The notes under the pieces were generated by a model, which saw only the letters and a list, made by a program, of their open reading frames with translations, had not been told where the DNA came from and did no database searches. Positions 29,800-35,299 of a DNA stretch of 64,000 nucleotides are shown one piece after another. How positions within the stretch are numbered: position 1 is the first letter of the stretch; each line of letters begins with the position of its first letter. The translations under genes were made by a program, and so were the position numbers. The DNA comes from Gammaproteobacteria bacterium (lineage in GTDB: Bacteria > Pseudomonadota > Gammaproteobacteria > Steroidobacterales > Woeseiaceae): the NCBI GenBank assembly GCA_030429005.1, contig JAUIDP010000002.1:62001-126000 (forward strand), in the 5' to 3' direction.

Positions 29800-30924
29800 A
29801 TGCACATCGTTGTCATCTGCAAGCGGCAGTATACGAACAAGGATGTCATCGACGATCGCTATGGGCGCTTGTGGGAAATTCCTGCGGCGCTGGCGCGACG
29901 CGGTCACAGCGTTACAGCGATTTGCCTGAGCTACCAGGCCCGTACCTTGCACGAAGAAAGCTTCAGCGCGCCTGGTGGCGGTCGCGTCCGCTGGCACAGC
30001 GTAAACCTTGGCAGATTGCGCGTCCCCGGTTTCCTCAGGTACCTGTGGCTGGTTCGCAAGACCGTTCTGGCGGAGCGACCCGATGTCATCTGGTCCGCGT
30101 CAGACTCAATTTACGCCATCCTGGGAGAGCATACGGCCCGGCGTATACGCCGACCTGTCGTGACGGACCTGTATGACAACTTCGAGTATTTTGCAGCGTA
30201 CCGTGTGCCTTTCGTGCGCAGGCGCTTTCGACGGGCCGTACGTGATTCGGATGGCGTCACTTGCGTCAGTCATGCTTTGCAGCAGCATGTTCGGGGCGAC
30301 TACGGACGCGCCGGGCAAACAGCAGTTGTGACCAATGCCGTGGATACCAGCTTGTTCAGGCCGATGGACAAGGCAGCATGTCGTCGACAGCTCGGCTTGC
30401 CGGCGAATGCCATGCTGGCAGGAGCGGCGGGCGATATCAGCAATTACCGCGGTGCCGACATGCTCTACCAGGCGTTTGTCGGAGAGCAGGCCAAACTGGG
30501 CGATGCCATGCTGGTGGTCGCCGGCTTTCGGAACGATGATACGCAGGTGCCCGCGGCCGATAACATCATTGACCTTGGCAGGTTACAGCCGGAGCAGGTG
30601 CCGGTCTTCCTGAACTGCCTGGACGTCGCCATTATTTACAATCGCAGTTCAATTTTTGGCGACTTCTGCTTCCCGCAGAAGTTTTTTGAGGCTGTCGCCT
30701 GTGAACTGCCGGTCGTCGTCGCGCGGGTGGGGGAGCTTGGCGGGTTGCTGCAGGACCAGCCGGAGTTGTTTTACGAAGATGGCGATACGGCGAGCCTCGT
30801 AAAGACGATCAAGCGGCAATTGCACGAGCGGCAGCGAGCAACTGTCGCCGTGCCAAGCTGGGACGACCAGGCAGCACTCCTGGAAGAACTGCTGGAGTCT
30901 GTCGTCGACGGGACCGGCAGCTGA
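29800..30924 (+). CDS. Glycosyltransferase family 4 (GT-B fold)
   Basis: The 374-residue cytosolic enzyme has an N-terminal donor-independent Rossmann domain (IPAALARRGHSVTAICL) and a C-terminal nucleotide-sugar domain containing FPQKFFEAVACELPVVVA, the family's E-x7-E region in a variant form. GAAGDISNYRGADMLYQAF marks the domain hinge. It probably adds a sugar to a lipid- or cell-surface glycan. The next gene is a family 2 glycosyltransferase with one base between, so the pair is co-transcribed. No flippase or polymerase is in the window, so the full glycan pathway lies elsewhere or is minimal. Confidence 0.85.
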   Translation: MHIVVICKRQYTNKDVIDDRYGRLWEIPAALARRGHSVTAICLSYQARTLHEESFSAPGGGRVRWHSVNLGRLRVPGFLRYLWLVRKTVLAERPDVIWSASDSIYAILGEHTARRIRRPVVTDLYDNFEYFAAYRVPFVRRRFRRAVRDSDGVTCVSHALQQHVRGDYGRAGQTAVVTNAVDTSLFRPMDKAACRRQLGLPANAMLAGAAGDISNYRGADMLYQAFVGEQAKLGDAMLVVAGFRNDDTQVPAADNIIDLGRLQPEQVPVFLNCLDVAIIYNRSSIFGDFCFPQKFFEAVACELPVVVARVGELGGLLQDQPELFYEDGDTASLVKTIKRQLHERQRATVAVPSWDDQAALLEELLESVVDGTGS

Positions 30925-30925
30925 G

Positions 30926-31816
30926 ATGTCTGAACCACTCTATATCGTCATTCCGGATTTCAACGGCTGGCAGCAGACCGAGGTCTGTTTGCGTCGTTTG
31001 CAGCAGTCTGCGTACACAAACTTTCGAGCGATTGTCGTCGATCACGGGACCGACGGGAAAACGGCTGCCGGGTTGCACGCGTTTCCATTCTGTATTCCCG
31101 TGCGCGGAGACCCGGACCAGTGGTGGAGCGGTGCGACCAACCTGGGAATTCGCGAAGCGCTGCAACGCGGAGCACGGCAGGTCATGCTCCTGAACAACGA
31201 CTGCTTTGTGACCGAAGCGACGCTGGCGTCGCTGCTTGGGCACCAGCGCGAGGATGCAGTCCGGCTGGTTGCACCAGTGCAGCGGGATGCAGAAACCGGC
31301 GAGGTACTGGTTGCGCGGGCCGGCACCTGTTTCACGCTCGGTTTCCCGACGCTGGTGACTCCCGGCATGCGCAGGGTGCCGGCACAGGGTGGTGAGCTGC
31401 TGTCGACAAGGCTGATCGTCGGCGGTCGTGGTGTCGTTATCCCGGCCGCGGTGTTCGATACAGTCGGGCTGTTCGATGAACAGGCGCTGCCGCACTATGG
31501 CGCCGACCACGATTTTTTCCTGCGCTGCCGGGACAAGGGCATACCGCTGTTTGTCGCCGCTGATGCGAGTGTCCATATCGACAATACGCGCACCACGGTA
31601 GCGAGAAACCTCGGGGAGCTGAGCTGGCGCCAGTTCCGCAGCACGCTGGGAGACATACGGTCGCACCGGAACATCGCTGCGCTGCGCACGCTCTTCAAAC
31701 GCTACTACCCGGTGCGGCTGCTGTACCCGGTCGGCGTCTTCCTCAACCTCGGGCGATACGTCCTGGACTACCTGGCGCAGAAAGCGTGGTACGCCCTGCG
31801 CCGCCCGGGCGAATAG
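30926..31816 (+). CDS. Glycosyltransferase family 2 (GT-A fold)
   Basis: The 296-residue enzyme starts PLYIVIPDFNGWQQTEVCLR, the GT2 nucleotide-binding strand. WWSGATNLGIREAL and VMLLNNDCFV follow, the latter where the DxD metal motif normally lies. RLIVGGRGVVIPAAVFDTVGLFDE and ADHDFFLRCRDKG are typical of rhamnosyl- and galactosyltransferase-like GT2 members. A hydrophobic C-terminal segment (VRLLYPVGVFLNLGRYVLDYL) may associate with the membrane. It is one base downstream of the GT4 gene. Donor and acceptor cannot be told from the sequence. Confidence 0.85.
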   Translation: MSEPLYIVIPDFNGWQQTEVCLRRLQQSAYTNFRAIVVDHGTDGKTAAGLHAFPFCIPVRGDPDQWWSGATNLGIREALQRGARQVMLLNNDCFVTEATLASLLGHQREDAVRLVAPVQRDAETGEVLVARAGTCFTLGFPTLVTPGMRRVPAQGGELLSTRLIVGGRGVVIPAAVFDTVGLFDEQALPHYGADHDFFLRCRDKGIPLFVAADASVHIDNTRTTVARNLGELSWRQFRSTLGDIRSHRNIAALRTLFKRYYPVRLLYPVGVFLNLGRYVLDYLAQKAWYALRRPGE

Positions 31817-31853: not shown

Positions 31854-34286
31854 TTGACAAGAACAATAGTAATACTGCGGGGCGGCACGTTGGCAGGACA
31901 ACCACGAAATTTGGCGGGCAACCGGCTGCGCTGGCTGGTGGTGTTGCTGTGGTTGCTCGGCGGTCCGCTGCAGGCCCAGGACGACGAGCCGCAAAGCGAA
32001 ACGGCGGCGAAGTCCGATGTCATCGTGAAGAAAACCATCGTCGCGCCAAAGTCGATGAGCGAACATGTCGATCGGTTGATCGGCGGTATCCATTCTTTTG
32101 AAAAAAACAGCGGTGATGCAGACAGTCTGTTTCACGAGCTCGATAACGTACTCAGGACGCGCATTCAGCTGATCAACGGGCAGATGCGAGACGCGGGATC
32201 GCCGTCCGACGCGGTCACAGGCAGCGTGCCTCTACCGTCCGGTGTGGAGACGATTGCGGATCTGCACGTGAACATTGCCGAGTTGTATGCCGCAAGGCTG
32301 CGACTGGTCCCGTACCTGAGCGACGAGCTACAGCTTGAAGTCGCTGCGACCGACGTCATCGGCGTTGAGCAGCTGACATTGGAGCGCGACTATATCTGGG
32401 AACAGGTCCGGTTTCGTACGCTGAACTTCCCGGCTTCATTCGACAACCTGGTCCGGCGAATCCAGATTGCACCGCTGCCGATCCTGTGGCGTTTCATCCA
32501 GTTCGTTCTGGTCATCCTGATTTTTCGCTGGTGGCGAAAGTGGCTGCCCGAAACGTTGCGCCGAATGCAGGTGTCGCTCGCCGAAATTCGTCCGCGAACG
32601 CCGGCCGTAGTGCGTCGAATTCGCCTGCTCTGGTATGTCGAGCAATTGCGCCGGCCGATCGAGTGGCTCCTGGTGACGACCGTGCTGCTGTCCATGATCC
32701 ACATGGAAGGCCTGACGTTGCTGATCGATATCATTGAAACGGTCGTGCGCTGGATCCTGCTGGGATGGCTGGCAGTTGCCACTCTTGACGCTTTCTCGGC
32801 GCGCGGGGCGGCCGGGCTGACCGGCGAAGAGGCCGCGGTGCGTCTGAAATCGTTGCGCCTGATAGCCGCCTGGTTGGTGCTGCTGGGGCTGGGCCTCGAT
32901 CTCGCAGAAAACCTGACCGGCGTCGCAACACTGCATGCCTGGGTCTGGCGACTGTTCCAGGTGCTGGCGTTGCCGGTGCTGATCGTGCTCCTCGCGTGGT
33001 GGCGCAAGCCGATATTCACCCGGCTCGAGCGGGAGTCGGAGAACTCCGAGTCGGTGCAGTCCCTGCTGCGCCACCAACAAGGGTTTCGCAGCTTCGGGAC
33101 GGCGGCGAAAGGCGCTTTGTGGTTGCTGGCAAACGGTATGCGGCGTTTTCTGATGCGTTCTTTCCTGCGGGTCGGCGATGTGCAGAGCCTCGGCCTGACC
33201 AGCAACTCGTCGACCGACGAGTCCGACACCTCCGCCGAGGATTTACCGGGCATCAGCGACGAGCAGCGTGAAAAACTGGTTTCCGGCGCATCCGGTTTCG
33301 ACAAGTACGCACGCTCGGACCGACGGCGGCTGGTTCGCCAGGCGCGTGCCGGACAGCCAGGTATAACCGCCGTCGTTGGCGAGCGCGGCATCGGCAAGAG
33401 CCGCTTCCTCGACGACACCTGCGCGGCGCTGGACGGTTCGGGTATAACGCTGGAGTGCAAGCTCGGCCTGTTCAGGGAGATTCAGGAGAGCTTGTGTGAA
33501 CAACTGTCAGTCGACAAATGTTCGGTCAAGAACGTTTCCGCGGCGCTGCTCGACAAGGGCATTCACACCATCTTCGTCAAGAACATTCACCGCTTGAGTC
33601 GACCGGTGGCGGAAGGGCAAGCGGAACTGCGCCACTTCACCGAGTTCATGGAGTCAATAAAGCAGGACATCCTGTGGGTCATGTCGGTGGATTGCTTTGC
33701 CTGGCAGTTCCTGCGCAGGGTGCGTGCCGACCAGGCCAGCATTCACGAAGTGATCGAGTTGCCGTCCTGGAGCGAAGATCAACTGACCGAGTTGCTCGAC
33801 CAGCGCAATACCGAGGCTGGTATCGAACCGGATTTTTCGGGCGTGCAGGTGCCACCGGAACATGCCGTGACAGACTATGACACGGCGGAGTTGCGTAACA
33901 AGGCGGGGGTATACCGGATGTTGTGGACGGTCGCGGGCGGCAATCCGGCCGTTGCGCTCATGGTCTGGTCAAACTGCCTGTATTTTGATGCCGAAGCCGG
34001 TGAGCAGGTCCAGGTTCGGCTGCCGGTGCAACCGTCGTCGCGTGACCTCGACAACGCGTCGCACAATGTTCTGCTGGTGTTGCGCTGCATTGCGCAGGCC
34101 GACCTGATTACCGAAACGGACATCGTCGACAACCTGCGCTTGCCGACAGGGGCAGTAGGCAGTGCCATGCACTATTGTGCGTCGCGAGGATGGATCGAGG
34201 AGATCGACGGGCAGTTCAGAATTACGATGCGGTGGTTCAAGACCATCACACGGGTTTTGGCCCGGCAGAATTTGTTGGCGAGGTGA
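31854..34286 (+). CDS. Membrane-anchored NTPase-like protein (degenerate STAND/AAA module)
   Basis: The 810 residues (TTG at 31854; TTG at 31890 is preceded by GCGGGG and would start directly at the signal peptide) have a signal peptide, a periplasmic helical domain (about 45-205), about five membrane helices (about 206-390), and a cytoplasmic NTPase-like region (about 470-810). Walker A is intact: GERGIGKSR, Lys515. The expected Walker B strand, TIFVKNIHRLS (about 572-582), has Lys-Asn in place of the acidic pair, so hydrolysis is doubtful. The end looks like a winged helix (DNLRLPTGAVGSAMHYC). The next gene is an MscS channel, 5 bases on. I do not recognise a named family. Confidence 0.65.
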   Translation: MTRTIVILRGGTLAGQPRNLAGNRLRWLVVLLWLLGGPLQAQDDEPQSETAAKSDVIVKKTIVAPKSMSEHVDRLIGGIHSFEKNSGDADSLFHELDNVLRTRIQLINGQMRDAGSPSDAVTGSVPLPSGVETIADLHVNIAELYAARLRLVPYLSDELQLEVAATDVIGVEQLTLERDYIWEQVRFRTLNFPASFDNLVRRIQIAPLPILWRFIQFVLVILIFRWWRKWLPETLRRMQVSLAEIRPRTPAVVRRIRLLWYVEQLRRPIEWLLVTTVLLSMIHMEGLTLLIDIIETVVRWILLGWLAVATLDAFSARGAAGLTGEEAAVRLKSLRLIAAWLVLLGLGLDLAENLTGVATLHAWVWRLFQVLALPVLIVLLAWWRKPIFTRLERESENSESVQSLLRHQQGFRSFGTAAKGALWLLANGMRRFLMRSFLRVGDVQSLGLTSNSSTDESDTSAEDLPGISDEQREKLVSGASGFDKYARSDRRRLVRQARAGQPGITAVVGERGIGKSRFLDDTCAALDGSGITLECKLGLFREIQESLCEQLSVDKCSVKNVSAALLDKGIHTIFVKNIHRLSRPVAEGQAELRHFTEFMESIKQDILWVMSVDCFAWQFLRRVRADQASIHEVIELPSWSEDQLTELLDQRNTEAGIEPDFSGVQVPPEHAVTDYDTAELRNKAGVYRMLWTVAGGNPAVALMVWSNCLYFDAEAGEQVQVRLPVQPSSRDLDNASHNVLLVLRCIAQADLITETDIVDNLRLPTGAVGSAMHYCASRGWIEEIDGQFRITMRWFKTITRVLARQNLLAR

Positions 34287-34291
34287 TTGAA

Positions 34292-35200
34292 ATGCTGCGA
34301 AATCCCTTCTTGAGAATCCTGTTCGCGCTCACCACGAGCGGGATGTTCTGCGGCGCAGCTGTTGCCCAGGAAGCCGAAGAAAAACCGGGAATCAGCGACC
34401 TCGCATTGCTTTCCCAGGCGATTAACTGGGACGGCATTATTCGCGCAGTGTTTATCATCGCACTAGCCTGGCTGTTGCTCCGCTTTGTTGATCGAATCGT
34501 GGAGAACCTGGGCAAGACGATTGCCGAGCATCGACTCGCATTCCAGCGCATCAACGCTTTCTTCCATTACTTTGTCTACGTGATGACGGTCGTCATCATC
34601 GTCATGTTCAGTTTTGACATCAGCCCGGAAATCATCGCCCTGTTCGGCGGCGCGGCTGTCGTCGCACTCGGCTTCGCAACGCGGGACCTCCTGGCCTCTC
34701 TGGTCGCCGGCATACTGATCATCTTTGACCGGCCGTTCCAGCTGGGTGATCGCGTGACGTTCGGCGGCGAGTATGGCGATGTCATCAGTATCGGGCTTCG
34801 CTCGGTCAAGATCCGTACGCTCGACGATTGCACTGTCACGATCCCGAACAACCTGTTCCTGAGCGAGGTCACGTCCAGCGGTAATTCCGGCGAACTGGAA
34901 ATGATGACGGTTGTCGATTTTTACATCGGCCTCGACCAGGACGTAAAACTCGCGCGCGACCTGGTGCGTACAGCGACGGCAACGAGCCGCTACATCTACC
35001 TGCCGAAACCGATCAGTGTGCTGGCCTGGCAGGAACCGCTGGATGGTTGTATTGCGATGAAATTGCGGCTGAAAGCCTATGTGCTGGATACCAAGTACGA
35101 AAAGGACTTTCAAACGGACGTGGTGCTGCGGGTCCACCAGGCATTCGCCGAATACGATATCCAGCCGCCGGTCGTGCTGGCACCGGCTGCGAGCGCTTAG
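34292..35200 (+). CDS. MscS-family small-conductance mechanosensitive channel
   Basis: The 302-residue protein has a signal peptide (cleavage near AAVAQE), two or three membrane helices and the MscS beta domain. The pore helix and entry are plain: GGAAVVALGFATRDLLASL followed by DRPFQLGDRVTFGGEYGDV. FDRPFQLGD is the family signature. Start ATG at 34292 is preceded by GCGAGG at a good distance; an earlier in-frame start at 34175 lies inside the upstream gene. The 5-base gap to the NTPase-like gene means one transcript. Unlike housekeeping MscS, it has a cleavable export signal. It converges on tRNA-Leu. Confidence 0.85.
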   Translation: MLRNPFLRILFALTTSGMFCGAAVAQEAEEKPGISDLALLSQAINWDGIIRAVFIIALAWLLLRFVDRIVENLGKTIAEHRLAFQRINAFFHYFVYVMTVVIIVMFSFDISPEIIALFGGAAVVALGFATRDLLASLVAGILIIFDRPFQLGDRVTFGGEYGDVISIGLRSVKIRTLDDCTVTIPNNLFLSEVTSSGNSGELEMMTVVDFYIGLDQDVKLARDLVRTATATSRYIYLPKPISVLAWQEPLDGCIAMKLRLKAYVLDTKYEKDFQTDVVLRVHQAFAEYDIQPPVVLAPAASA

Positions 35201-35212
35201 CATCCGGGGGAT

Positions 35213-35299
35213 TGGTGCCCAGGAGAGGACTTGAACCTCCACTACCTTTCGATAACCAGCACCTGAAGCTGGCGCGTCTACCAATTCCGCCACCTGGGC
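35213..35299 (-). tRNA. tRNA-Leu (anticodon CAG)
   Basis: Read on the - strand, the 87 bases (CCA included) fold as a class II tRNA. The 7-bp acceptor stem GCCCAGG/CCTGGGC is perfect; the D-arm carries GGCGGAATTGGTAGACGC, typical of tRNA-Leu; the anticodon stem CCAGC/GCTGG holds loop TTCAGGT, anticodon CAG; a long variable arm precedes the T-arm loop TTCAAGT. The encoded CCA is at 35213-35215. It converges on the MscS gene and faces away from rnr. Confidence 0.97.

Follow-up and report, generated by a model that had tools for sequence, protein, structure and literature searches.

What do a membrane protein with a damaged nucleotide-binding domain and the small mechanosensitive channel encoded directly behind it do together? 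This question is raised by two genes in the window, as the whole analysed stretch of 64,000 nucleotides from a 3.1 Mb draft assembly is called here. The preliminary description had suggested that they form a two-part device for mechanosensing or defence, in which nucleotide binding might gate or regulate the channel. The features of the locus are as follows, with the source of each assignment in brackets.

31854..34286, + strand: partner gene, encoding an 810-amino-acid MscK-like membrane protein with an AAA+/winged-helix module (ORF, model, profiles)
31920..31985, + strand: signal-peptide-like hydrophobic segment, about residues 23-44, ending near AQ-DDEP (sequence)
32046..32468, + strand: periplasmic helical region, residues 65-205 (model; topology inferred)
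32469..33173, + strand: five membrane helices with flanking helices, residues 206-440, related to the outer membrane domain of MscK (hydropathy, model, profiles)
33246..34037, + strand: AAA+ core of the Cdc6/Orc1-TnsC type, residues 465-728 (structure comparison of the model)
33378..33401, + strand: Walker A motif GERGIGKS, residues 509-516, with Lys515 (sequence, alignment)
33567..33584, + strand: degenerate Walker B motif TIFVKN, residues 572-577, in which K576 and N577 replace Asp and Glu/Asp (alignment)
34050..34283, + strand: C-terminal winged helix, residues 733-810 (model)
34292..35200, + strand: small MscS channel of 302 amino acids with a signal peptide and three membrane helices, belonging to the paired-MscS clade (PF00924, hydropathy, tree)

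The partner ORF comprises 810 codons and starts with TTG; this start codon is uncertain, since the open frame extends 77 codons farther upstream. Five hydrophobic spans were found by hydropathy (about residues 205-223, 273-291, 293-311, 328-346 and 362-380). A structure model calculated from 24 relatives reached a mean pLDDT of 82.5 and about 90 over residues 465-810, and it contains the signal-peptide-like segment as a helix (residues 22-35) of low confidence. The mscS gene begins with ATG at 34292, 5 bases past the partner stop codon. Its product matches PF00924 (E 5.9e-19) and possesses the MS_channel beta domain, three membrane helices and the adjoining pore helix of the MscS family (Pfam, hydropathy, alignment). 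The preliminary description was thus accurate for both genes: it gave the first a signal peptide, helices in the periplasm, about five in the membrane, Lys515 and a degenerate Walker B motif, and placed the channel 5 bases behind it. It had also named a cytosolic part without a P-loop fold as evidence against its view; the model confirmed that this part is a P-loop fold.

Residues 465-810 of the model matched archaeal Cdc6/Orc1 (2qby, Z 15.8) and TnsC (7plh, Z 15.8), in each case including the winged helix. Pfam, NCBIfam and PADLOC assigned the partner to no named family; below the threshold, Pfam gave matches to the generic AAA_16/AAA_22 only, and phmmer found no match for it in the PDB. According to the model, the protein has the AAA+ fold with a winged helix, and the Walker A consensus GxxGxGK[ST] is present. 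It is therefore predicted to be a member of the AAA+ fold without normal ATPase activity, because K576-N577 replaces the Walker B aspartate and the catalytic acid. In contrast to Cdc6/Orc1 and the TnsC/MuB ATPases, which it resembles in fold over this region, the partner is membrane-anchored, its Walker B motif is lost, the motifs are erased in some of its relatives, and its gene context gives no sign of DNA transactions. KAP P-loop NTPases are likewise membrane-associated bacterial proteins; they carry membrane helices inserted within the P-loop domain, whereas all membrane helices of the partner precede this domain (hydropathy).

A scan of genomes with a peptide pattern yielded just one relative, and profile searches were needed for the rest. 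Wherever a partner was recognisable, in 38 of 38 independent genomes or records (27 loci found via the partner query and 11 via the MscS query), its gene lies directly upstream of mscS on the same strand, with a gap of about -8 to +40 nt, overlaps included. Homologues with genes that are never adjacent, which the preliminary description had named as speaking against its view, did not turn up; the two genes are adjacent wherever they were examined. Conversely, among 369 sampled genomes of the class, each of the 16 MscS proteins scoring more than 150 bits with the paired profile has a partner upstream. One further MscS (L205, 137 bits with the same profile) lacks a partner in the 1.4 kb upstream of it and is possibly an orphaned or borderline member.

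The paired MscS proteins group in a single clade (support 100/100) in a tree that also contained 24 unpaired MscS paralogues from nine of these genomes, and the main clades of the MscS tree reappear in the partner tree, as expected if both genes were inherited together. The pairing is far beyond chance; both genes are real and belong together. The MscS of the pair resembles E. coli MscS in its three membrane helices, its PF00924 beta domain and its similar size, and it differs from it in belonging to a clade of its own with a dedicated partner.

The membrane part of the partner is related to the outer membrane domain (TM1-6) of MscK, a relation which was established via the long-form relatives described below. 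A profile of long-form partners aligned with one of five MscK-like proteins over 190 membrane columns (hhalign, 91.8%, E 7.5e-7, score 68.5), and nine nulls, one reversed and eight block-shuffled, scored at most 28. A window-anchored profile (A6) reached 3.4% against the MscK profile, which is below significance, in a similar register, so that the sequence link to MscK rests on these relatives and not on the window-anchored profile alone. When the membrane part was modelled alone, E. coli MscK took Foldseek ranks 1-2 of 350,542 chains at a weak E value of 0.5. It also came first in VIA (152 residues, MscK 505-698, consistent register) with a Z score of 8.1, which is modest for helical bundles. 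No match to the Pfam MscS_TM family was found in the partner.

In MscK, a ring domain lies in the periplasm, TM1-6 make up a peripheral bundle, and TM7-11 constitute the inner core, which contains the MscS-like pore (PMC9653487). The partner shares with MscK (KefA) of E. coli, the membrane domain of which is PF12794, a signal peptide and a large periplasmic helical domain, as well as extra membrane helices that in MscK lie N-terminal to the MscS-type pore; profiles and structure relate the membrane parts. In contrast, MscK is one chain with a C-terminal pore, and here the sensor chain ends in an AAA+/winged-helix module. The first gene was filed as MscK-like and not as MscK, because the pore is encoded by a separate ORF (34292-35200).

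The partners occur in three sizes. A larger periplasmic coiled region distinguishes the long forms (about 1050-1090 residues), and the copy in the window is one of the medium forms (about 780-870 residues). The short forms (about 300-500 residues), which lack a signal peptide and clear membrane helices, are paired with MscS all the same. The common denominator of all forms is the AAA+-derived module together with MscS. That soluble partners pair with MscS points to a contact in the cytosol and shows that the pairing does not require the MscK-like part.

The best explanation of these observations, to which we assign a probability of about 0.6, is that the two genes encode one heteromeric mechanosensitive channel, an MscK-like protein cut in two and provided with an AAA+ module. 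From the relation of the membrane parts and the anatomy of MscK (PMC9653487), the partner would correspond to the outer half of MscK and carry an AAA+ module where MscK has its pore. For the complex and its stoichiometry, the control of gating and the role of the nucleotide we infer the following arrangement. The MscS pore would come from the second gene. The first would contribute the periplasmic helices and the outer bundle of membrane helices, the counterparts of the periplasmic ring and of the curved, tension-sensing skirt of MscK. By analogy with MscK, the periplasmic and outer membrane parts may sense tension or a periplasmic signal. The AAA+/winged-helix module stands at the end of the partner, where MscK continues into its pore; it would lie on the cytosolic cage of the MscS heptamer and determine the gating threshold. 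In lineages with intact motifs it might bind and hydrolyse ATP, so that the nucleotide tunes the channel; in the window it would at most bind a nucleotide without normal hydrolysis, and in lineages without the motifs it would only be a structural adaptor. The conserved pair, the dedicated MscS clade and the MscK-related membrane domain support the mechanosensing half of the earlier suggestion. E. coli MscS functions alone, and by analogy the MscS of the pair might need no partner, which speaks against a heteromeric channel.

The state of the nucleotide site bears on a second reading, in which the ATP/ADP occupancy of the AAA+ module would be the main signal that opens or closes the MscS pore, in this genome too, and would couple osmotic release to the energy status of the cell. 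It draws support from the Walker A motif, which is intact here and in many relatives, and from the long forms L009 and L010, which keep the Walker A lysine, an acidic Walker B pair and an arginine at a sensor-2-like GNPR. The comparison across relatives makes it doubtful nevertheless. The K-N pair, by which the window has lost the Walker B aspartate, occurs among the relatives only in one independent congener (G008/L003) and is, given this second occurrence, not a sequencing error. Other relatives carry D-E (L010, L041, L110, L111), D-D (L009, L037 and some soluble forms), D-N (many, including L109 from the same family) or D-L (L052). The Walker A lysine is replaced by T, A or S in all rows examined from genus g288 and family f203 while most of the soluble forms have R, L, V or I in its place. 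Eight soluble partners have lost both motifs, yet these proteins are paired with MscS and related to the AAA+ partners (hhalign 99.4%, E 6.8e-22, 348 columns). On the tree, the Walker A lysine and the Walker B aspartate must each have changed at least 3 times and the catalytic acid at least 6 times; the tree was rooted at its midpoint, and the direction of these changes depends on the presumption that the AAA+ fold is older. Judging from these alignments, K-N is a lineage-specific change and one case of a general drift of the nucleotide site, and nucleotide binding without normal hydrolysis is possible in this copy. Since lineages without the Walker A lysine, or without both motifs, keep the pair, nucleotide handling cannot be what its function universally depends on.

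The repeated loss of these motifs affects a third explanation as well, namely that the partner is a chaperone or assembly factor which helps to insert, assemble or turn over MscS and stays outside the working channel. AAA+ proteins often remodel other proteins, and the partner is always encoded first and closely coupled to mscS, which would suit such a role. Repeated loss of hydrolysis and binding motifs is, however, hard to square with a remodelling motor, and the kinship of its membrane part with MscK points to a domain of the channel; we consider this explanation improbable.

Even less likely is an anti-phage or conflict device, in which the NTPase would sense infection, open the MscS pore and kill the cell. 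In favour of this reading, the distribution of the pair is patchy, with true members in 3 of the 107 genomes of the family (G000, G008, G805) and 2 further ones among the 196 genomes of an order-level sample, and the fold is common to STAND/Avs and TnsC-like NTPases. Profile A4 matches about 100 of the 107 family genomes; nearly all of these matches cover about 100 P-loop columns with E above 1e-10, and such partial matches, confined to the P-loop region, were regarded as generic AAA proteins and not counted. Loci L014 and L031-L036 were excluded on the same grounds. Beside the Gammaproteobacteria, relatives were found on plasmids of Alphaproteobacteria (Novosphingobium pLA3 and Mpl; Caulobacter), which also counts in favour of this reading. 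On these plasmids they are annotated merely as AAA family ATPase or ATP-binding protein adjoining a mechanosensitive channel, and the annotated plasmid loci were left out of the alignment. Against defence, neither protein matches a defence family model of PADLOC, a library which would not contain a new system, and the phage collection gave no match. The sampled neighbours are housekeeping or metabolic genes (ABC-F protein, histidine kinase, gamma-glutamyltranspeptidase, peptidase, glycosyltransferases). Within genus g288, the pair occurs in 38 of 61 genomes and is syntenic in the copies checked, and a STAND sensor would not be expected to lose its nucleotide motifs. The defence half of the earlier suggestion thus found no support. 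Finally, the 38 of 38 loci and the single MscS clade refute the idea that an orphan NTPase gene came to lie beside an ordinary mscS by chance; nothing favours it beyond the one locus, and its probability is negligible.

To our knowledge, bacterial MscS-type channels are homo-oligomers gated mainly by membrane tension, while MscK, the known exception, requires a ligand in addition. A search of the open-access literature, subscription papers lying outside it, returned no account of an AAA+/MscS pair; the parts are of known kinds and their combination appears to be new. We see an even chance that the pairs represent widespread, undescribed heteromeric MscS channels whose regulatory subunit derives from an initiator-type AAA+ ATPase. 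They would form a graded series from apparently active forms via binding-only ones, as in the window, to complete pseudo-ATPases, and the MscK sensor domain would have passed between covalent and split arrangements. A dedicated and genetically linked AAA+ subunit would add a cytosolic input to MscS-type channels, and the split arrangement is a natural experiment on the role of the MscK sensor domain apart from the pore. Since the nucleotide sites decay while the type of pore next to them stays the same, the series also lends itself to studying how an ATPase becomes a structural part, of which it is a clear case.

Some observations concern the surroundings of the pair. A tRNA-Leu(CAG) gene (35213-35299, minus strand) ends 12 bases from the mscS stop codon. 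The tRNA-rnr side is conserved in congeners (L142-L148), while the opposite side differs in every genome; this flank may therefore be an insertion hot spot. Neither an integrase nor a flanking repeat was seen at tRNA-Leu, and no direct repeats of its end were among the repeats listed. Directly upstream of the partner gene, two glycosyltransferase genes (29800-31816) lie on the same strand, ending about 40 bases before it; they were not seen with the partner and mscS among the neighbours sampled at other loci. In four genomes of genus g288 (G1004, G1012, G1039, G1056) the partner appears to be split into two or three frames, through frameshifts or assembly errors.

The Caulobacter plasmid (L039:7806-9646) carries two successive MscS genes behind the partner, of which the second resembles the paired type far less; a conjugation cluster lies downstream of them. 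At L052:3545-10981, the partner starts about 120 bases past a tmRNA gene, and mscS is followed without a gap by a K+ channel-like gene, which combines a TrkA-N domain with an ion-channel pore. Further MscS genes lie beyond it on both strands, and the region is possibly an osmotic gene cluster. Gating of MscK depends on external potassium, and the K+ channel-like neighbour is of interest in this respect.
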